Assembly (NCBI GenBank): GCA_015659035.1
Contig: DQNS01000001.1
Coordinates: 1 to 64,000, forward strand
Source: Acidobacteriota bacterium
GTDB taxonomy: Bacteria > Acidobacteriota > Vicinamibacteria > Vicinamibacterales > UBA8438
Direction: 5' to 3'
Length of the DNA stretch: 64,000 bases
Shown: piece after piece, positions 51,207-64,000 of the stretch
How positions within the stretch are numbered: position 1 is the stretch's first letter
How the letters are laid out: the number at the start of each line of letters is the position of its first letter
The notes under the pieces: model-generated
Database searches by the model: none
The model's input: only the letters and a program-made list of their open reading frames with translations
What the model was told of the DNA's origin: nothing
Translations under genes and position numbers: made by a program

Positions 51207-52091
51207 TCAGGGTCGCCCCCTGAGACCCAGAATCTCTCGCGCCTGTGCCGAGGTCGCCACCGTCGCCCCGGTCACCTCCAGGACCCGGACCGCCTTCTCG
51301 ACCAGCGCGGCGTTGCTCGGGGCAAGCACCCCCTTTTCGAGATACAGATTGTCCTCGAGCCCCACCCGGCAATGCCCGCCGAGCATCGCGGCCAGCGCCA
51401 CGAACGGAAACTCGGCGCGGCCGATGCCGAAACCGGCCCAGTTGGCGCCGGGCGGCAGCAGGTTGCGCATGAAGACCATCGCCTCGGGTGTCGACGGCGC
51501 GCCCCAGGGGACACCCAGCACGATCTGGAAGAGCTGCGGCGCGTCGAAGGCGCCGTCGGCGACCATCTTCGCGGCCAGCTGGATGTGCCCCGCCTCAAAC
51601 ACCTCGAGCTCCGGTTTTACCCCGGCCTCCCGGATGTGGGCGGCCATCTTCGACAGGTGCGCCGGGATGTTGGCGAACACGTGTGGCCCGAAGTTCATGC
51701 TGCCCATGTCGAGCGAGCAGATCTCCGGCCGCAGCGCCAGGATGTGCTCGACCCGCCGTTCCGGGGTCGTGATCGTCGACCCGGGTCCGGCGGTCTTCGG
51801 GTCCGGATCGCCCGGCACGAACCTGGCGCCTGGACCGGTCGTCAGGTTGAGCACCACATCGATGCCGCTGTCCCGGACCCGCTCGACCACCTCGCGGTAG
51901 CAGCCCACGTTCATCGACCCGAGCCTGGTCTCCGGGTCTCGGACATGGATGTGGATGATCGCCGCGCCGGCACGTGCGGCCTCGATGCCGGAGGTGGCGA
52001 TCTCTTCGGGTGTCACCGGGACGGCCGGGTTCTTCCCCGCGGTGTCGGCGGAGCCGGTCAGGGCGCAGGTAATGATGGTGGGGGTGGGCAT
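51207..52091 (-). CDS. BKACE family (DUF849) beta-keto acid cleavage enzyme
   Basis: This 294-aa TIM-barrel enzyme condenses a beta-keto acid with acetyl-CoA and releases acetoacetate and a new acyl-CoA. Zinc ligands are visible in AAIIHIHVRDPET (HxH) and the later GGHCRVGLEDN; TPEEIATSGIEAARAGA, EICSLDMGSMNFG, ELEVFEAGHIQLA and LVGVPWGAPST-like segments complete the family pattern. The best known member is 3-keto-5-aminohexanoate cleavage enzyme of lysine fermentation, but family substrates vary widely, so no specific name is given. It is divergent from the thioredoxin-fused gene of the selenoprotein locus. Confidence 0.93.
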   Translation of the reverse strand: MPTPTIITCALTGSADTAGKNPAVPVTPEEIATSGIEAARAGAAIIHIHVRDPETRLGSMNVGCYREVVERVRDSGIDVVLNLTTGPGARFVPGDPDPKTAGPGSTITTPERRVEHILALRPEICSLDMGSMNFGPHVFANIPAHLSKMAAHIREAGVKPELEVFEAGHIQLAAKMVADGAFDAPQLFQIVLGVPWGAPSTPEAMVFMRNLLPPGANWAGFGIGRAEFPFVALAAMLGGHCRVGLEDNLYLEKGVLAPSNAALVEKAVRVLEVTGATVATSAQAREILGLRGRP

Positions 52092-52281: not shown

Positions 52282-53943
52282 ATGTCAGATTTTCCGATAG
52301 CCGGTGCCGACGCGCCGGCCTTTGCCCTGAGGGACCGGAACGGGACGCCGCTGGCGTTTGGCGACGGTGAGTCATCCGCGCCGGCGACCTTGCTCTTCTT
52401 CTTCAAGCACGATTGCGCCACGTGCGATCTGACGGCGCCCCTGGTGGAGCGGCTGCACGGTGCGCTCGCGGCCGAGGGACTTCGTGTCGTGGGTGTCTCG
52501 CAGGACGCCCCCGCCCAGACCACCGGCTTCGTGGACCGGCACGAGCTCAGCTTCGCGGTGGCGCTTGACACCGCGCTCGAGGTCTCGGCCGAGTACGGGT
52601 TCGACGCGGTGCCGGCACTCGTGCTCGCCGGCGACCCCCGACAGGTGCTCTTCAGCTTCGAGGGGTTCGTCAAGCGGGACCTGCTCGAGCTGACCCGGTT
52701 GGCCGCCCAGGCCTGTGGTGCGGCAACACCCGAGATCGTGCGCGACGAGGACCAGCTGCCCGAACACCAACCCGGCTGTGGGTCGAAGGTGCATGACCCG
52801 GATGTCGCCCGACGGCTGGCGGTGCGCCGTGGCGCGGCGACACTCGGCGCGCGGCGGGTGCGGATCCCGATCGATGACGACCCGTTCGAGTTCATGGCGG
52901 CCCAGGGGCTGGACGACGGCCTTCCGGTGGTGCCGCCCACCGAGGAACGGGTGCTGCGGATGCTGCAGGGGACCATGCGCCCCGCGTCCGCGGTCGTGGC
53001 CCACATCCCGCCGAACCTGGCGCCCGCAACCGTCGAGAAGATCGCGGTGAACGCGGTCATGGCGGGGTGCCGGCCCGAGTATCTGCCAGTGGTCATCGCG
53101 GCGACCGAGGCCGCCTGCACCGACGCGTTCAACCTGCACGGGGTTCTGGCCACCACCTACTTCGCGACGCCGGTCATCGTCGTCAACGGCCCGATCCGCC
53201 ACGAGATCGGCCTCAACTGCGGCGGCAACCTGTTCGGGCAGGGCTTCCGGGCCAATGCCACCATCGGCCGCGCCTTGCAGCTGCTGGTCCGCAACGTCGG
53301 CGGCGGACGGCCGGGCGGCGTCGACATGTCCACGCTCGGTCAGCCAGGCAAGTTCACCTGCTGCGTCGGCGAGAACGAGGAAGAGAGCGGCTGGGAGCCG
53401 CTGCACGTCGAGCGCGGGTTCGGCAGGAATACGAGCACCGTGACCCTGTTCGCCGGCGAGGCGCCGCGGGCGATCCGGGACCAGTTGTCACGCACGGCGC
53501 GCTCGCTCGGCGCCAGCGTGGGGTTGTGTCTGGAGGCGATGGCGCACCCGAAGCTGCACCGGATGGGCGAGGTGCTGCTGGTCGTGAGCCCCGAGCATGC
53601 CCGCACCTTCGCGCGGGACGGCTACAGCAAGACGGACCTGCGCGCCCGGATCCAGGAGGTGACGGCCCGGCCGTTACGCGAGCTGCTGCCGGACGACGAG
53701 TGTCAGAAGGGCATGGCACTCAGTGCGATACCGCGGGAACTCCTGGGATCCGACGGTCGGCCGACCCCCGATGCGCTGGACACCCCACTCGCGAAGTTCA
53801 AGCGCGACGAAGATATCCTGATCATCGTGGGGGGTGGGACGGCGGGCAAGTTCTCGGCGGTCCTCGGTGGCTGGGCTAGCGGTACCACTGGTTCGATAGC
53901 AGTGACGAGGGAGATCAGGAACGAACGGAGTTCGTCGGCTTGA
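52282..53943 (+). CDS. thioredoxin-like domain fused to DGLPVVPPT domain; likely UGSC partner
   Basis: This 553-aa protein has two parts. Residues about 1-155 are a peroxiredoxin/TlpA-like thioredoxin fold with a CxxC active site (FFFKHDCATCDLTAP), VVGVSQDAPAQT and a cis-Pro region (FDAVPALVL). After a linker (HQPGCGSKVHDPDVARRL) comes a domain of about 340 residues marked by GLDDGLPVVPPTEERV, AVNAVMAGCRPEYLPVVIAATEA, IGLNCGGNLFGQGFRANATIGRA, KFTCCVGENEEESGWEPLHVERGF and ILIIVGGGTAGKFSAV. I cannot name an enzyme activity. It is exported by no visible signal, so cytoplasmic. The UGSC selenoprotein follows 295 bp later, and a paralogue of the second domain alone starts at 63760. Together this suggests a redox pair. 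Confidence 0.85.
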   Translation: MSDFPIAGADAPAFALRDRNGTPLAFGDGESSAPATLLFFFKHDCATCDLTAPLVERLHGALAAEGLRVVGVSQDAPAQTTGFVDRHELSFAVALDTALEVSAEYGFDAVPALVLAGDPRQVLFSFEGFVKRDLLELTRLAAQACGAATPEIVRDEDQLPEHQPGCGSKVHDPDVARRLAVRRGAATLGARRVRIPIDDDPFEFMAAQGLDDGLPVVPPTEERVLRMLQGTMRPASAVVAHIPPNLAPATVEKIAVNAVMAGCRPEYLPVVIAATEAACTDAFNLHGVLATTYFATPVIVVNGPIRHEIGLNCGGNLFGQGFRANATIGRALQLLVRNVGGGRPGGVDMSTLGQPGKFTCCVGENEEESGWEPLHVERGFGRNTSTVTLFAGEAPRAIRDQLSRTARSLGASVGLCLEAMAHPKLHRMGEVLLVVSPEHARTFARDGYSKTDLRARIQEVTARPLRELLPDDECQKGMALSAIPRELLGSDGRPTPDALDTPLAKFKRDEDILIIVGGGTAGKFSAVLGGWASGTTGSIAVTREIRNERSSSA

Positions 53944-54238: not shown

Positions 54239-54778
54239 ATGAGTGAGTCGCTTGTCATCCTCGATCCTACCGACGAACGGGCACCGCTCGGCCGGCGGCC
54301 TGCGTCTCGACCAGACCGCCTGCACGGGACTCTTGGCATCATCGACATCGCCAAGCCCCGCGGCGACATCTTTTGCGACGAGATCGAGCGTTTGCTTCAC
54401 GATCGCTTTCCACAGCTCGACGTCATCCGGCTACAAAAACCGACATACACCAAACCGGCCCCCGGTGATCTCCGGGATGAAGTCGGCGAGCGGTGTCAAG
54501 CGGTGATCCAGGCGCTGGCCGATTGAGGGTCCTGCACGTCGTGCAGTGTGCACGACCTGGTCGACTACGAAGCGCGGGGGATCCCCTCGGTCCTGGTGGC
54601 GTCGTCCGAGTTCGTGCATGCCGCCCAGACCCAGGCCGAGGCGCTCGGCATGCCGGACCTGGCCGCCGGGTCGGTGTTCGTACCGCACCCGATCCAGGAC
54701 GCGACCGATGAGGAAATGCGTATGAAGGCCCAGGACGCGATTGATGCGATCGTGGAAGCGCTGACGGCCAACGGGTAA
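54239..54778 (+). CDS. UGSC-motif selenoprotein (in-frame TGA = selenocysteine 96)
   Basis: The track splits this gene into 54119-54526 and 54548-54778. Read through the TGA at 54524-54526, it gives one 179-aa protein: MSESLVILDPTDERAPLG, GTLGIIDIAKPRGDIFCDEIERLL, QAVIQALAD-U-GSCTSCSVHDLVDYEARGIPSVLVASSEF, then AQTQAEALGMPD, FVPHPIQDATDEEMRMKAQDAI. The DUGSCTSC motif is the hallmark of the UGSC family, known as selenoproteins in marine metagenomes. The fold is Rossmann-like with the Sec near a strand-loop and two more cysteines in CTSC. A SECIS-like hairpin follows the TGA. AAGGA lies 8 bp before the ATG. The reaction is unknown; the neighbour with a CxxC thioredoxin domain could reduce it. 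No sel genes are in the window. Confidence 0.9.
54538..54556 (+). promoter_or_regulatory. bacterial SECIS-like hairpin
   Basis: GTCGTGC and GCACGAC pair perfectly over 7 bp around the 5-nt loop AGTGT. The apical loop starts 18 nt after the TGA and has a G in its first two bases, which agrees with the bacterial SECIS rule as I know it. An alternative fold (GGTC...GACC with TGCAC/GTGCA) exists but puts the loop too near the TGA. Confidence 0.75.
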
Positions 54779-54926: not shown

Positions 54927-56483
54927 ATGGATGGCATCGCGATAACCGTCATCATCGTCTATCTCGTGGGGGCGACCGCCGCCGGCAGCTTCATGGCGCG
55001 GCGTGCCAAAAGCTCGGCCGGTTGGGCGGTGGCCGGTGGCGGCATGTCGACCGGGCTGATCGCGGTCGGCATCGCCGGCACCCGCATTGGCGGCGCCGGC
55101 ACTTACGGCGTGGCGGGTAACGTCATCAGCGGCGGGGTCTGGAACCTGTGGTGGTATGGCATCAACACGTTCCTTGCGCTCGCGATTGTGGGGCTGTTCT
55201 TCGGCGTCTTCTTCCGGCGCCTCAAGCTGCACACGGTCGGTGAGCTGTTCACGATCCGATTCGGCAACCGACGGTGCCAGTGGCTCACCAGTCTGTGCGT
55301 GCAGACCGAGTATGCCATCGTCAACCTGATCGAGGCCTACGTCATCGGCATCATCCTGAGCACGCTGACCCCGCTGTCGATGTTCGGCGGGGTGATGGTG
55401 GCGGCGGTCATCTTCGCCACCTACGTGTCATTCGGCGGGCTGTGGGGCACGGCGGTCACCAACCTGATTCACTGCACGGTGGTGCTGGTCGGGTTGGCGG
55501 CGGTCGGTGTCATGGGCATCGGACAGCTCGGCGGATGGAGCACGGTGACGGCGACGATCGGCGAACATCTGGCCGACGCATCCCGGAACGAGGCGACCTG
55601 GTGGGGATTCGTCGGCGCCGGCTGGCTGCCGGTGTTCGGGATGTTCTTCGCGGCCGCGGTGCACACACCGGCGGCATCAATCTACACCAACTACTCGACG
55701 GCAGCCAAAAGCGAACGCCACATCGCGCCCGCCTTCCTGCTGGCTGGACTTATCGGCGCGATGATGCCGATGCTCGCTGGTCTGATCGGCATCCTCACCA
55801 CCGCCCGCTACGGTCTGGATGCAGGACTGAGCGGCTACCGAAACCTGACGACCCTGGCCTCCGAGATCAGTCCGGTCGTCGGCGGTGTCGCGCTGGCGGC
55901 GGTGCTGGCGGCCGTCATCTCCTCCGGCGGGCCGATCCTGCTGTCGAGCGCCACGATGTTCGTGCGCGACTGGCTCCCGTTCACCCGGAACTACTCGTCG
56001 GACCAGCGGCTCAAGGCCTACCGCATCACGACCACGGTCTACGCGTTCCTGGCGGCGATCGCGGCCTGGTTCGTGGCCACCTATACGACGATCTCGATCC
56101 TCGACCTGCTGCTCTTCGGATTCGCAATGGTGGTGCCACCCGCGGTGTCACTGGGCTATCTCGTCTACTGGCCTCGCACGACGGAGAAAGGCGCCTACTG
56201 GGGCATGGCGGTCGGCTACGCCTCCGGGCTGATCTGGTTCGCGCTGATCAAGATCGCGCTGGCCAACGGGTTCGCCGCAGCGGAGGGCGCCGGTCTGTTG
56301 CGGCGCATTCTCGTCTACGGCCTCACCATCGGCGGCGAGGGGATCGACCCGTCATATCTGACCTTCTTCGTACCATTGTGTGTCGTCCCGATCGTGTCGC
56401 TGATGACCAGCGAGGGGAAGGTCCGCGAAGATTTCTACGAGATGCTCTCTGGACGCAAGACGGTCGAGCACGAGCTCGTATGA
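54927..56483 (+). CDS. sodium:solute symporter (SSS family)
   Basis: This 518-aa protein is a 13-helix-type Na+/solute symporter. The first helix (AITVIIVYLVGATAAGSFMARRAKS) is followed by GWAVAGGGMSTGLIAVGIAGTRIGGAGTYGV, the conserved SSS glycine-rich unwound segment. The sodium-site region with SSGGPILLSSATMFVRDW fits helix 8. The C-terminus reaches VPIVSLMTSEGKVREDFYEML. The substrate cannot be named (SSS members carry sugars, amino acids, acids or vitamins). The ATG at 54927 is chosen; the longer track ORF adds non-hydrophobic sequence over the hairpin repeats. It lies between the selenoprotein and the fatty-acid enzyme. Confidence 0.92.
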   Translation: MDGIAITVIIVYLVGATAAGSFMARRAKSSAGWAVAGGGMSTGLIAVGIAGTRIGGAGTYGVAGNVISGGVWNLWWYGINTFLALAIVGLFFGVFFRRLKLHTVGELFTIRFGNRRCQWLTSLCVQTEYAIVNLIEAYVIGIILSTLTPLSMFGGVMVAAVIFATYVSFGGLWGTAVTNLIHCTVVLVGLAAVGVMGIGQLGGWSTVTATIGEHLADASRNEATWWGFVGAGWLPVFGMFFAAAVHTPAASIYTNYSTAAKSERHIAPAFLLAGLIGAMMPMLAGLIGILTTARYGLDAGLSGYRNLTTLASEISPVVGGVALAAVLAAVISSGGPILLSSATMFVRDWLPFTRNYSSDQRLKAYRITTTVYAFLAAIAAWFVATYTTISILDLLLFGFAMVVPPAVSLGYLVYWPRTTEKGAYWGMAVGYASGLIWFALIKIALANGFAAAEGAGLLRRILVYGLTIGGEGIDPSYLTFFVPLCVVPIVSLMTSEGKVREDFYEMLSGRKTVEHELV

Positions 56484-56560: not shown

Positions 56561-56603
56561 CCACAGAGGGCGGATGTCACAAGCAAAGGAGCAGAGATCG
56601 TCG

Positions 56604-58712
56604 ATGTCTGACCTAGTGACCATATCAAACCGTGACGGCGTGGCCGTCATCACCCTCCAGAATCCGCCGGTCAATGGCCTTGGTTTCGCCGTACGAAGCG
56701 GCCTGCAGGCCGCGTTCGACTCAGCGGCGACCGACGACGCCGTCCGCGCGCTGGTCATCACCGGGTCGGGGCGGATGTTCTGCGGCGGCGCAGACATCCG
56801 GGAGTTCGGCCAGACGCCACCCGCGGGGACGCCGCACTTGCCCAGCCTGTTCGATGCGATCGAGGCACTGGACAAGCCGGTGGTTGCGGCCATCCACGGT
56901 GTGGCCCTCGGTGGAGGCTGCGAGCTGGCGCTCGGCTGTCATGTCCGGCTGGCCGCGCCCGGCACACGAGTCGGGCTGCCCGAGGTGACCCTCGGCATCC
57001 TCCCCGGAGCCGGCGGGACACAGCGGATGCCCCGACTGATCGGGGTGCCGGCCGCGCTCGATCTGATCGTCAGTGGCAAGATGGTGCCGGCATCCAAGGC
57101 CCTGACGCTCGGCATCATCGACGAGGTGGTTGAGGGCGACGTCGATGTCGTCGAAGCGGCCGTGGCCCTGGCCCGTCAGATGGCGGACGAGAACCGTCCG
57201 GTCCGCCGGGCATCCGCACTCGACGACAAGATCGCTGAAGCCCGTGGCAAGCCGGAGATCTTCGAGCAGTTCAAGAAGAAGATGGCACGTCGGGCCCGCG
57301 GGTTCGAGGCGCCGTACGCTTGTGTCGCGTGTATCGAGGCGGCGGTCACCCAACCGTTCGCCGAGGGACTCGCCACAGAGCGGGCGACGTTCCAGCGCCT
57401 CGTGGCCTCGGATCAGTCGAAGGCGCAACGACACGCGTTCTTCGCCGAACGCCAGGTCGCCAAGATTCCCGATGTCCCGAAAGACACTCCGACCCTCCCG
57501 ATCGACACGGCGGCGGTTATCGGCTGCGGCACGATGGGTGGCGGCATTGCGATGAACTTCGCCAACGCCGGTATCCCGGTGACGGTGTTTGAGGTGTCTC
57601 AAGAGGCGATCAACAAGGGACTCGGCATCATCACGAAGAACTACGCCGCGACCGTGTCGAAGGGCCGTCTCTCGCAGGAGGCGATGGACACCCGGCTCGG
57701 TCTGATCTCGACCACGGTCAACTATGAGGACCTCGGCAACGCCGACGTCGTCATCGAGGCGGTGTTCGAGGAGATGGGGCTCAAGAAGAAGATCTTCGGC
57801 ACGCTGGACACGGTGTGCAAGCCGGACGCGATTCTCGCCAGCAACACCTCGACACTGGACGTCGACGAGATCGCGAGTGCCACCAGCCGGCCGGAGAAGG
57901 TCATCGGCACCCATTTTTTCAGCCCGGCGAACGTGATGAAGCTGATGGAGAACGTGCGTGGCGCGCAGTCATCGCCGCAGACCATCGCCACCATCATGAA
58001 GCTGTCGAAGACGATCGGAAAAATCGGCGTACTGGTCGGTGTCTGCGACGGCTTTGTCGGCAACCGGATGCTCTACGCCTATCGTCGGCAGGCCGACTTC
58101 CTCCTGGAAGAGGGGGCGCTCCCCCAGCAGATCGACAAGGTTCTCTACGACTTCGGTATGCCGATGGGCCCATACGCCATGGGCGACCTGGCGGGGCTCG
58201 ACGTCGGCTGGCTGATTCGCAAAGAGCAAGCGGCGACGCGACCGAAGCACCTCCGCTATTCGACCGTGGCCGACCGGATCTGCGAGCTGGGCCGTTTCGG
58301 GCAAAAGACCGGCGCCGGCTGGCACCGCTACGAGGCGGGGAACCGGACACCGATCCCCGACCCCGAGATCGAGCAGCTCATCGTGTCGATCTCAGAGGCG
58401 CAGGGCATCCCCCGGCGCGAGGTCACCGACCAGGAGATCCTCGAGCGCTGTATGTATCCGCTGGTCAACGAAGGGGCCAAGATTCTCGAGGAAGGCCTCG
58501 CCATGCGACCCAGCGACATTGACATCGTGTGGATCTACGGTTACGGCTTCCCACGCTATCGCGGCGGCCCGATGTTCTGGGCCGACCTGATCGGCGTGAA
58601 GCAGATCTACGACGTGATGAGCCGTTTGCACGACGAGCACGGCGACTGGCTCGAGCCGGCCCCCTTGCTGCGGCGACTCGCCGAACAGGGCAAAGGGTTC
58701 GGGGATCTGTAG
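56604..58712 (+). CDS. fused enoyl-CoA hydratase / 3-hydroxyacyl-CoA dehydrogenase (FadB-like)
   Basis: This 702-aa multifunctional beta-oxidation enzyme hydrates enoyl-CoA and oxidises the 3-hydroxyacyl-CoA with NAD. The N-terminal crotonase part has [22 protein letters not shown] and [19 protein letters not shown] with both catalytic glutamates. From about residue 300 the HAD part has [21 protein letters not shown] (NAD loop), [30 protein letters not shown] (catalytic His with Glu) and [11 protein letters not shown], then the C-terminal helical domains. The bounds match peroxisomal-type/short FadB fusions. The ATG at 56604 is preferred; 56574 is an alternative. No thiolase is adjacent. Confidence 0.95.
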
Positions 58713-60880: not shown

Positions 60881-62792
60881 TCACGGTAGCGCCAGCGCGA
60901 TCAACCCCGACTCGGCGCCGCTGCCGAACGCGGCCACGATGTACTGCTTGCCGCCGGCCATGTAGGTCATCGGCGTCCCGGTCAGGGTCGCGGGCAGGTC
61001 GACCCCGTGCACGATCTCGCCGGTCGCCTTGTCGAACGCATTGAGAACCGGGCCCTGCCCGCTCTGCCGATTCCCGCTGAGCCCCAGGAACAGCAGCGTC
61101 TTGGTCACCACCGGTCCCGTGAAGGCGCCGCCACCGAGTGGGCCCGGATCCGACACCCCCATCTCGATCAGGCGCTGTCGGGGACCGTCGCCGAGCGTGA
61201 CCTGCCAGGCGTGCTCGCCGGTGGTCAGGTCGATCGCGGTCAGCCGCACATAGGGCGGCTTGACCAGCGGCAACTGTTGCGGGCCGCGCAGACTGCTGCG
61301 GCCTCGCCTGTAGTTGAAGTCGGACCGATCCGGGTCCGCCTTGTCTAGCCGGACTGAAATCGGGTTGGTCCTGGACGGCACATACAGGTAGCCGGTGTCG
61401 GGGTCGAACCCGGCGCCATACCAGTTGGCGCCGCCGCCCCACCCGGGCATCTGGATTGTCCCCTTCTCCGAGGGCGGGTGGAACAGGCCGCCGTAGTCGT
61501 GCTGCGCCAGAATCTCCTCGGCCTCGGCACGCAGCTCCGGGGTGAAGTCGATCAGGTCATCGACCGAGATCCCCTGCCGTTCGAAGGCGGGCGGCCTGGT
61601 CGGAAACGGCTGTGTGGGTGACGCCTGCTCGCCCGGCACCGACGACTGTGCCACCGGCCGTTCCTCAATCGGCCAGACCGGCTCGCCGGTGACCCGGTCG
61701 AAGACATAGGTGAACCCCTGCTTGCTGACCTGCGCCACCGCCTTGATGTCCCGGCCATCCACGGTGATGTCGACCAGGGTCGGCGCCGCCGGCAGGTCGT
61801 AGTCCCACAGGCCGTGGTGCACCATCTGGAAGTGCCAGACCCGCTCGCCGGTCGCCGCGTCGAGACAGACCAGGCTCTCGGCAAACAGGTTGTCACCAAG
61901 CCGATGCCCCCCCATACCAGTCGTTGGTCGGCGTGCCGATCGGCAGGTAGACGTAGCCCAGCTCCAGATCAGCGCTCATGATGGTCCACACGTTGGTGTT
62001 GCCGGTGTAAGTCCAGGAGTCGTTCTCCCAGGCGTCGTTCCCGAATTCGCCCGCCTGTGGGACGGTGTGGAAGGTCCACCGGAGCTCGCCGGTGTGCACA
62101 TCGAAACCGCGGATGTCACCCGGCGGCGCGGTCATGTAGCGGGGTCCGTCAGAAATCGAGGAGTCGACGATGACGACGTCGCCGACCACCAGCGGGGGTG
62201 AGATCACCTGATAGGCTCGGCGGTCCACCGGCCGGCGGAGCCCCTGGGTCAGATCGATCTTGCCATCGCCGCCAAACCGGCCAATTGGCCGCCCGGTCTC
62301 GGCGTCGAACGACCAGAGGTGCGCGTCACCGGTCGCCAGGAAGATCCGTGCGTCGTCCCCATCGGACCAATGTGCGACACCGCGTGAGTTGAACCCGAGA
62401 TTGGTCAGGCGCCCCGACTCATAGCTGCCAACGTCCTGCACCCACAGCTCCTCGCCGGTCTCGGCGTCGATCGCCGCCACGATGCTGAGCGAGGTCCGGA
62501 TGTAGAGCACGCCACCGACCATCAGCGGCGTCGCCTTGAACGCGCCCGCCCGAAGCTCGCGGTTCGCGATGACCGCGGTGTCGGACGACTCCCACTGCCA
62601 GGCGACCTGGAGCCGGTCGACGTTGCCGGCGTCGATCTGGTCGAGCGCCGCATACTTGGTGCTGCCGTCGTCGCCGCCGTAGCTCCGCCATTCGCCGTTC
62701 AACGCGCCGGTCTGTGCCACGACGGTCGGCGCGCACAGGGTCGTCATCAGCAGAAACACGAGGACCGACACTGTACCCTTCTGCATGGTCAT
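60881..62792 (-). pseudogene. PQQ-dependent dehydrogenase, paralogue 3, with +1 frameshift in a G7 run
   Basis: The track gives two ORFs, 61893-62792 and 60881-61915, that are the N- and C-terminal halves of one quinoprotein of about 636 aa. The first half ends [11 protein letters not shown] where the family has NDYYGGHRPGDN; the second begins [19 protein letters not shown] run of seven G (61907-61913) carries one base too many. Otherwise all blocks are intact: signal peptide ending [70 protein letters not shown]. The gene may be a real pseudogene, a slippage switch, or a sequencing error. It overlaps the methyltransferase stop by 4 bp and is followed by cytochrome c'. Confidence 0.88.
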
Positions 62793-63637
62793 TCCCCTTC
62801 TCCGGCAGGTTGAGGCCGCGACAGGACGGCCCTGACGACACCCACTCGGTTCTCGTCCAAGTTCGTCATCATGTTACCGGTCATCGTCTCCCATTCCGAA
62901 CCGAGCAGGATACTCGGACCGCTCGGCGGCGCCGCGGGGGCCCTTGTGCGTGCGCGCAGCTTCCGGAACCACTCGCGCGTCGGCTCGGTCAGGTCTCGCC
63001 ATGTCGTGACGTCGAAGCCGGCCGCCCGTAGTTCGTCCTCTAGCTGCTCGGCGGTGATGAGAAAGCTGATCGCCGGGTCGCGGGCCCACGGCACCGGAAA
63101 GTGTATCGGGCCGCCGGGGCCCGCCACGATGTCATAGAGCAGCAGCCGACCGCCTGGTTTTACGACCCGGAACATCTCGCCATAGAGGCGTCGCTTGTCC
63201 TCGATGTTCATCGACGCGTGCTGGGTCCAGACCACATCGAATGCGGCGTCGCCGAACGGCAGGTCGAGCGCGCTGGCCTGGCAGTAGCGCACCGACCGGT
63301 CCCGGCAGGCACGGAGGGCGAGCATCGTCGCGACCCGGCAGTATTCACCTACGAGGTCGATGCCGGTCACGCGGCACCCGGAGCGCGTTGCCAGCACCCG
63401 CGACGGACCGCCTATGCCGCACCCGACGTCGAGCACGCTGGTCCCTGGCGACAACGCCCCCAGCGCAGCCAGCTCGGTCGTCGCCTCGCGGCCGCGGATG
63501 TGGAACTCGTCGATCGGTCCGAGGTCGTCGAGGGTCAAGGCCTCGAGGTCAGCGCCGCTTTGCCGCAGCGCGTCGACGATCCGTTCAGCAAGGTCGAACC
63601 GCGTGTAGTGGCGTTGGACGGCTGCGGCTTCGCTCAT
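62789..63637 (-). CDS. class I SAM-dependent methyltransferase
   Basis: This 282-aa protein is a small-molecule methyltransferase. Motif I is SVLDVGCGIGGPSRVLA, the acidic end of strand 2 is VTGIDLVGEYC, motif II-III reads FDVVWTQHASMNIEDKRRLYGEMFRVVKPGGRLLLYDIV. The wording and length resemble sarcosine/dimethylglycine and related N-methyltransferases or UbiE-like enzymes, but the substrate is unknown. The start at 63637 is chosen; the longer track ORF runs into the spacer. Its stop overlaps the PQQ dehydrogenase start (ATGA), making methyltransferase, quinoprotein and cytochrome one likely operon. Confidence 0.9.
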   Translation of the reverse strand: MSEAAAVQRHYTRFDLAERIVDALRQSGADLEALTLDDLGPIDEFHIRGREATTELAALGALSPGTSVLDVGCGIGGPSRVLATRSGCRVTGIDLVGEYCRVATMLALRACRDRSVRYCQASALDLPFGDAAFDVVWTQHASMNIEDKRRLYGEMFRVVKPGGRLLLYDIVAGPGGPIHFPVPWARDPAISFLITAEQLEDELRAAGFDVTTWRDLTEPTREWFRKLRARTRAPAAPPSGPSILLGSEWETMTGNMMTNLDENRVGVVRAVLSRPQPAGEGE

Positions 63638-63654
63638 GCTCGACGGAGCTAAAT

Positions 63655-63675
63655 GGCTTGAGGCTATGGGCGCTC
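63655..63675. repeat. heptanucleotide array (three units)
   Basis: GGCTTGA GGCTATG GGCGCTC lies in the divergent spacer between the methyltransferase gene and the partial gene at the right edge. The rest of this spacer shows nothing clear. Confidence 0.55.
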
Positions 63676-63759
63676 TGGGCCGGGATCGTGCCCGGCGCCC
63701 GGGTGCACTATAGTGGTCGCGGCACAGGACCCACGGCGAACGAGGCCGATTATACGCAG

Positions 63760-64000
63760 ATGAAGCAGGACCAGGAACCATCGACAGCGCCCACCAGCGA
63801 TCAGGGCGACCTGGTCGAGTGGTACTTCGAGCAGGGGTGGACCGACGGGTTGCCGGTGGTCCCCCCGACCCCGGAGACGGTGGCCGCGATGGTCGCGGCG
63901 CTCGGCGGCGATGCCGAGCGACTCGAGGCCCGCGTACCGCCGCGGTGGGGCAACCTGACCCGCGAGGTCCTGGCCATCAACATGGTGCTGGCCGGGTGCA
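63760..64000 (+). CDS. DGLPVVPPT-domain protein, partial (runs off the window)
   Basis: Only the first 80 codons are present. They read MKQDQEPSTAPTSDQGDLVEWYFEQ, then GWTDGLPVVPPTPETVAAMVAAL, RVPPRWGNLTREVLAINMVLAGC. This is a paralogue of the second domain of the 52282-53943 protein (DGLPVVPPTEERVLRML and IAVNAVMAGC), without the thioredoxin domain. The gene is truncated by the window end. If its neighbour at 52282 is a guide, a UGSC-type gene may lie downstream. Confidence 0.8.
   Translation, partial: MKQDQEPSTAPTSDQGDLVEWYFEQGWTDGLPVVPPTPETVAAMVAALGGDAERLEARVPPRWGNLTREVLAINMVLAGC

Follow-up and report, generated by a model that had tools for sequence, protein, structure and literature searches.

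With the D-UGSC pair, a known selenoprotein family gains a new kind of partner set. A complete gene for a protein with the motif DGLPVVPPT (hereafter D) begins at the edge of the window, i.e., the 64,000 nucleotides of acidobacterial DNA that were analysed, and it is followed by a gene for a UGSC selenoprotein, a family of which D is an almost constant partner. Together, D and UGSC probably make up a two-part selenol/thiol-dependent reductase acting in organic-acid catabolism.

The unfused D gene, its UGSC partner and a fused paralogue

The window comprises bases 1-64000 of a contig of 93,955 bases, so the sequence downstream of its edge could be read as well. The genes at and past the edge are the following:

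63760-64866, + strand, unfused D gene (P0001), 368 aa, of which the window holds the 5′ part (63760-64000)
65006-65561, UGSC selenoprotein gene (P0002), 185 codons including the stop, 140 bp past the unfused D gene and beyond the window
65900-67174, LarA-type gene, downstream of P0002 and beyond the window

The original prediction held that a second DGLPVVPPT gene begins at the window edge and that its start matches the large domain of the gene at 52282 without the thioredoxin (Trx) part of the latter. This was borne out by the complete gene, which starts with the ATG at 63760 and whose product showed 40% identity (E 4e-79) to residues 200-536 of the 52282 product in a pairwise comparison, starting just before the aligned large domain and lacking the Trx part. 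The distance assigned to the two paralogues, within 10 kb, is approximately correct, the first ending at 53943 and the second starting at 63760. Relatives of the 63760 ORF at 67-91% identity occur in many other genomes, excluding a chance frame. The protein carries the invariant C80 and C178 as well as a tail, C361-VDGT-C366-EL (CVDGTCEL). A methyltransferase gene (62789-63781, − strand) diverges from the unfused D gene and, if taken from its longest start, overlaps the beginning of D; a methyltransferase gene is also found beside D in a close relative (G002) and near D in a SAR324 locus (L036).

Another UGSC gene had been suggested as a possibility past base 64000, to be sought in the next 2-3 kb, and a downstream sequence without a UGSC-type partner was to count against the prediction. 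The partner is present as P0002, so that the observation is confirmed and the earlier interpretation supported. The translation of P0002 (MMSTRTT...AIGDUGSCTSCSLHD...) contains one in-frame TGA (65315-65317), read as Sec (U104), and the protein scores 188.1 bits against PF24696 (cut-off 25; E 1.9e-55) and 148.4 bits against NF041046 (cut-off 125). A SECIS-like hairpin follows the TGA, with its loop about 20 nt downstream and a folding z of −2.86.

The paralogous pair lies within the window:

52282-53943, + strand, Trx-D gene: AhpC/ResA-like thioredoxin domain (CATC) followed by the D domain from about residue 200
54239-54778, + strand, UGSC selenoprotein gene (P0005) paired with Trx-D, TGA 54524-54526 read as Sec (U96)
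54527-54570, + strand, SECIS-like hairpin of bacterial type just past the TGA, loop at nt 20-22, z of −1.11 taken alone

Both pairs share the same layout, i.e., a D gene, Trx-fused or not, and then a UGSC gene with an in-frame TGA. P0005 scores 150 bits against PF24696 and 155.7 bits against NF041046, both above the cut-offs, and is 33% identical to P0002. The Trx domain of the 52282 protein matches PF00578 (49.1 bits, cut-off 26) and PF08534 (37.3 bits, cut-off 26.6), and by structure it matches ResA/DsbE. A moderately confident structure model of this protein (pTM 0.66) gave a confident D part and a ResA/DsbE-like Trx domain in a less certain domain arrangement.

The TGA of the UGSC genes is a Sec codon, not an error. 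It is kept in all full-length UGSC genes found in near relatives, and both UGSC proteins of the contig possess the U/C-G-S-C motif together with Sec insertion signals. SECIS elements were judged by folding and by comparison of Sec with Cys versions: the mean folding z was −2.3 in 67 Sec-type genes vs. −0.5 in 20 natural Cys-type genes, and the hairpin loop lies mostly at the same place across the 67 Sec-type genes. The assembly (3.18 Mb, 150 contigs, 89% complete), whose closest named genomes are Vicinamibacteria/Acidobacteria MAGs, encodes selA (527 bits), selB (350 bits) and selD (291 bits), each above its cut-off. A tRNA-Sec candidate at a contig end scored above the gathering score; ARAGORN called no tRNA on it. 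The selD match lies within an 808-aa open frame (G000:C139:40101-41024, L141), which suggests an Ndh-SelD type fusion. An Rfam scan of the window and of the locus L002 returned nothing at gathering scores.

D as the partner of UGSC

With 255 Sec sequences, UGSC was reported to rank among the most abundant families of selenoproteins in the aquatic samples of GOS (PMC2398784). That literature gives neither a function nor a partner for the family (PF24696/NF041046, "UGSC-containing protein"), which shows the same Sec in a UxxC motif and a bacterial SECIS as the genes studied here; the partner identified here is D. One UGSC fusion with a domain called "Unknown_1" is mentioned in the same work (PMC2398784), and this domain may be D. 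A literature search found no paper on D or on a UGSC function.

That D is an almost constant partner of UGSC is observed at several levels. In a sample of the phylum, D and UGSC occurred in the same 10 of 119 genomes, and among 60 relatives all 28 that bear D also have UGSC, two more giving weak partial UGSC matches only. On plasmids, each of the 15 records that contain UGSC contains D too, and in nine further records with D, UGSC is divergent, degenerate or was not detected. In most of the D-bearing genome loci scanned, UGSC lies immediately up- or downstream of D or is fused to it N-terminally in one frame, across Acidobacteria, Proteobacteria, Actinobacteria, Chloroflexi, Binatia and Bacillota as well as on haloarchaeal plasmids; in Poribacteria and a few other loci, no UGSC was found within 6 kb of D. 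The pairwise divergences of D and UGSC are correlated (r = 0.81 over 49 pairs; permutation maximum 0.20). In one genus, three genomes carry both genes in similarly high numbers, namely 11 UGSC with 12 D, 10 with 10, and 26 with at least 16, the last being a lower bound because the D search of that genome scored only 16 candidates. Such an expansion of UGSC to 10-26 genes each (G165, G094 and G139; L147-L150) is unusual for a selenoprotein family, and most of the expanded copies adjoin D or are fused to it, many having a TGA and some neither Sec nor Cys.

D itself lacks a family name in the resources searched. When 28 diverse D proteins were compared with Pfam and NCBIfam, the D part gave no credible match, and credible matches were confined to the fused Trx domains. 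In annotated plasmid records, D is either a "hypothetical protein" or has no gene listed, as on the IncP plasmid of Acidovorax sp. T1, where the D gene is missing from the annotation's gene list. The UGSC gene of that plasmid (L121:7371-7910) and that of Paracoccus ferrooxidans (L120:7435-8004) are split or shortened at the Sec TGA in public annotation. Across 119 D sequences, D29, G30, N74, G79, C80, T109, G120, R147, E181 and W188 are nearly invariant, and C178 is present in 112. For a natural UGSC-D fusion (L082), AlphaFold2 predicted the domain arrangement with confidence (pLDDT 94, pTM 0.93). Foldseek with this model found no D match among the best 50 PDB hits; apparently the UGSC half alone matches, mostly to Rossmann/flavodoxin-like folds at low TM-score (best TMq 0.21). 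Searches of PDB sequences with the UGSC-D and UGSC alignments gave nothing credible. The modelled UGSC fold is Rossmann/flavodoxin-like, in contrast to the Trx-like fold guessed in the UGSC literature.

The redox residues are not kept everywhere. The fused UGSC-D proteins beside aconitase X and DUF126 in two distant lineages, Vibrio europaeus (L122:7377-9062) and Sporomusa termitida (L151:6200-7924) read DMGTS instead of DUGSC, and several of the expanded acidobacterial copies also lack Sec and Cys, with D kept. Since D is kept where both redox residues are lost, the scaffold can have some function in which the selenol plays no part; these versions are either non-redox derivatives or a sign that the core chemistry is not redox. 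The retention of the rest of the scaffold, together with the lack of a known oxidoreductase relative of D, would fit an enzyme without redox chemistry (hydrolase, lyase or isomerase), whose UGSC part would serve mainly for substrate binding and whose Sec would be a nucleophile needing only occasional repair. However, most lineages keep Sec although selA-D must be maintained for it, and D has repeatedly acquired dithiol modules, which makes a non-redox enzyme an unlikely reading.

Relationship to glycine and proline reductases

UGSC is distantly homologous, by sequence comparison, to the Sec domain of protein B of the glycine, sarcosine, betaine and D-proline reductases; the homology covers one domain and does not amount to membership. 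The glycine reductase selenoprotein B model TIGR01917 was matched by 18 of 33 UGSC proteins (best E 2.1e-6), and other UGSC proteins matched the GrdF, GrdH and PrdB models. In P0002 and P0005, the stretch matching GrdB-type models surrounds the Sec motif. P0002 fails as a member of GrdB/PrdB (PF07355, TIGR01917, TIGR04483), with about 75 residues aligned and 15 bits vs. a cut-off of 602. A PF07355 search of its own genome gave no match and one of 40 relatives gave one short match only, leaving a profile-profile comparison without material, so that the GrdB link rests on HMM scans.

The D-UGSC pair resembles GrdB/F/H with GrdE, and PrdB with PrdA, in having a Sec subunit with UxxC in a homologous stretch, a larger second protein and, as proposed here, dithiol-driven chemistry. 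However, UGSC has 180 aa, aligning to about 75 residues of the C-terminal part of GrdB far below the cut-offs; D is unrelated by sequence to GrdE and PrdA; and D-UGSC occurs in aerobes with catabolic CoA genes. These comparisons bear on the idea of a GrdB/PrdB-like reductase in the strict sense, in which Sec cleaves a C-N (or C-S, C-O) bond through a Se-carbon adduct, thioredoxin is the electron source and D corresponds to GrdE/PrdA. Besides the homology of UGSC to the Sec domain of GrdB, GrdF, GrdH and PrdB, such an enzyme would share the two-gene logic and thioredoxin as donor, which is the donor of glycine reductase (PMC10298544), and genes for a BCCT transporter and a homocysteine S-methyltransferase lie near on the contig and in some relatives. 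Yet no D member matched the models of the pyruvoyl-bearing proproteins GrdE and PrdA or of any other reductase at E ≤ 1, the host genome is devoid of a PF07355 match, and hosts and neighbours resemble CoA-dependent organic-acid catabolism rather than Stickland fermentation. A reductase of this strict type is therefore conceivable but doubtful.

Gene context, proposed dithiol donors and proposed reaction

Within the family, several loci (L131, L130 and L028 among others) share a series of genes on one strand, namely Trx-D, UGSC, SSF (Na+) symporter, FadJ, D, UGSC and LarA. In the window, this series is interrupted ahead of the unfused D gene by GntP, a small gene of 144 aa, a PQQ dehydrogenase and the methyltransferase. 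Further genes around the Trx-D pair are as follows:

54930-56483, + strand, sodium:solute symporter (PF00474), conserved cluster
56574-58712, + strand, FadJ-like enoyl-CoA hydratase/3-hydroxyacyl-CoA dehydrogenase, conserved cluster
51207-52091, − strand, beta-keto acid cleavage enzyme (BKACE, PF05853), divergent from Trx-D

BKACE was not found in the regions of relatives that were searched, and its association is uncertain. The PQQ-dehydrogenase-like gene (60881-62792, − strand) is broken up into a pair of ORFs that overlap each other (60881-61915 and 61893-62792), likely by a frameshift or an assembly error. Elsewhere, D-UGSC is located near CoA transferases, acyl-CoA enzymes, CoA ligases, MmgE/PrpD, BKACE and CoA ester lyase, near TRAP/TTT transporters and near LysR or PrpR-type regulators. 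For these neighbours, only Pfam-confirmed clusters were used, as clustering by longest ORF yields many spurious antisense ORFs in GC-rich DNA. The context looks like catabolism of imported carboxylic acids. A betaine/carnitine substrate, to which the nearby BCCT, homocysteine methyltransferase and BKACE genes might point, is not claimed, as these genes are present in some relatives only or were not found.

The original prediction also proposed that the D domain works with separate or fused redox donors, which is supported and can be refined. All D proteins of the unfused clade, comprising this gene and its relatives as well as mycobacterial, rhodococcal and alphaproteobacterial proteins, end in C-x-[DN]-G-[TSVA]-C-x-x, and all unfused D proteins from the same genomes as Trx-D end in C-x-D-G-[TS]-C. 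In the Trx-fused D proteins of the window and its relatives, the Trx part has CxxC in all and the C-terminal tail is found in none. The Cys tail and the Trx domain are mutually exclusive, the tail being absent in other D clades as well. With CVDGTC in the unfused D and in no Trx-fused D, the paralogues seem to hold two different built-in dithiols, the Cys-x4-Cys tail being new here as an alternative to the fused Trx domain.

Each dithiol has a counterpart among known proteins. At the N-terminus of the 52282 protein, the domain with CATC is of the ResA/DsbE and AhpC/TSA kind; unlike in those proteins, it is fused to D, presumably as a dedicated electron donor. The CVDGTC tail has the same C-x4-C spacing near the C-terminus as the alpha subunit of class I ribonucleotide reductase, in which the C754/C759 pair of the E. 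coli enzyme is reduced by thioredoxin (PMC11143221); no homology to the body of D is claimed, and a shuttle role of the tail would be an analogy. Genes for thioredoxin reductase and thioredoxin (trxB and trxA) precede the unfused pair in Arthrobacter, and trxB follows it in Roseovarius and lies near it in Variovorax, such adjacency being limited to a few loci. Electron flow from thioredoxin via the dithiol to the selenol is what we infer.

The UxxC motif, the AhpC/ResA-like fused domain and the aerobic hosts would also agree with a protective thiol/selenol system, i.e., a peroxide or disulfide reductase shielding a pathway with D as scaffold. However, the genes are part of catabolic clusters that also encode transporters, LysR regulators and CoA transferases/ligases, and up to 26 paralogues per genome with strict D conservation point to substrate diversity, so that a protective role appears quite improbable.

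In the favoured two-part reductase, D would be the large subunit and the UGSC selenoprotein encoded just downstream the small subunit. UGSC, with its predicted Rossmann/flavodoxin-like fold, would contribute the redox pair Sec104/Cys107, and D, in which the motifs DGLP, MAGC and C-x2-E are invariant, would form the greater part of the active site. In every catalytic cycle, the selenolate would attack the substrate or be oxidised to a selenenylsulfide, which would be reduced by a dithiol, namely the fused Trx domain in one paralogue and the flexible CVDGTC tail in the other. The tail would be recharged by free thioredoxin/thioredoxin reductase, much as class I ribonucleotide reductase has its C-terminal dithiol recharged. 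As both pairs lie in the same conserved catabolic cluster, along with the Na+ symporter, FadJ and LarA, both probably catalyse reductive steps on a carboxylic or hydroxy acid that the cell imports.

More broadly, and tentatively, D and UGSC may represent an undescribed class of Sec/Cys reductases of aerobic bacteria and haloarchaea, present in 10-26 copies in some Acidobacteriota, with a catalytic subunit whose fold is not yet solved, GrdB-like reductive bond cleavage in organic-acid catabolism and interchangeable built-in donors (a fused thioredoxin or a ribonucleotide reductase-like C-terminal dithiol tail). UGSC has been without a function for nearly two decades, and with a partner, a homology to GrdB/PrdB, two dithiol donors and a catabolic cluster in hand, its role is now testable. 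For this, cultured members of Mycobacterium, Rhodococcus, Arthrobacter and Roseovarius offer Cys versions, with no selenium machinery needed.
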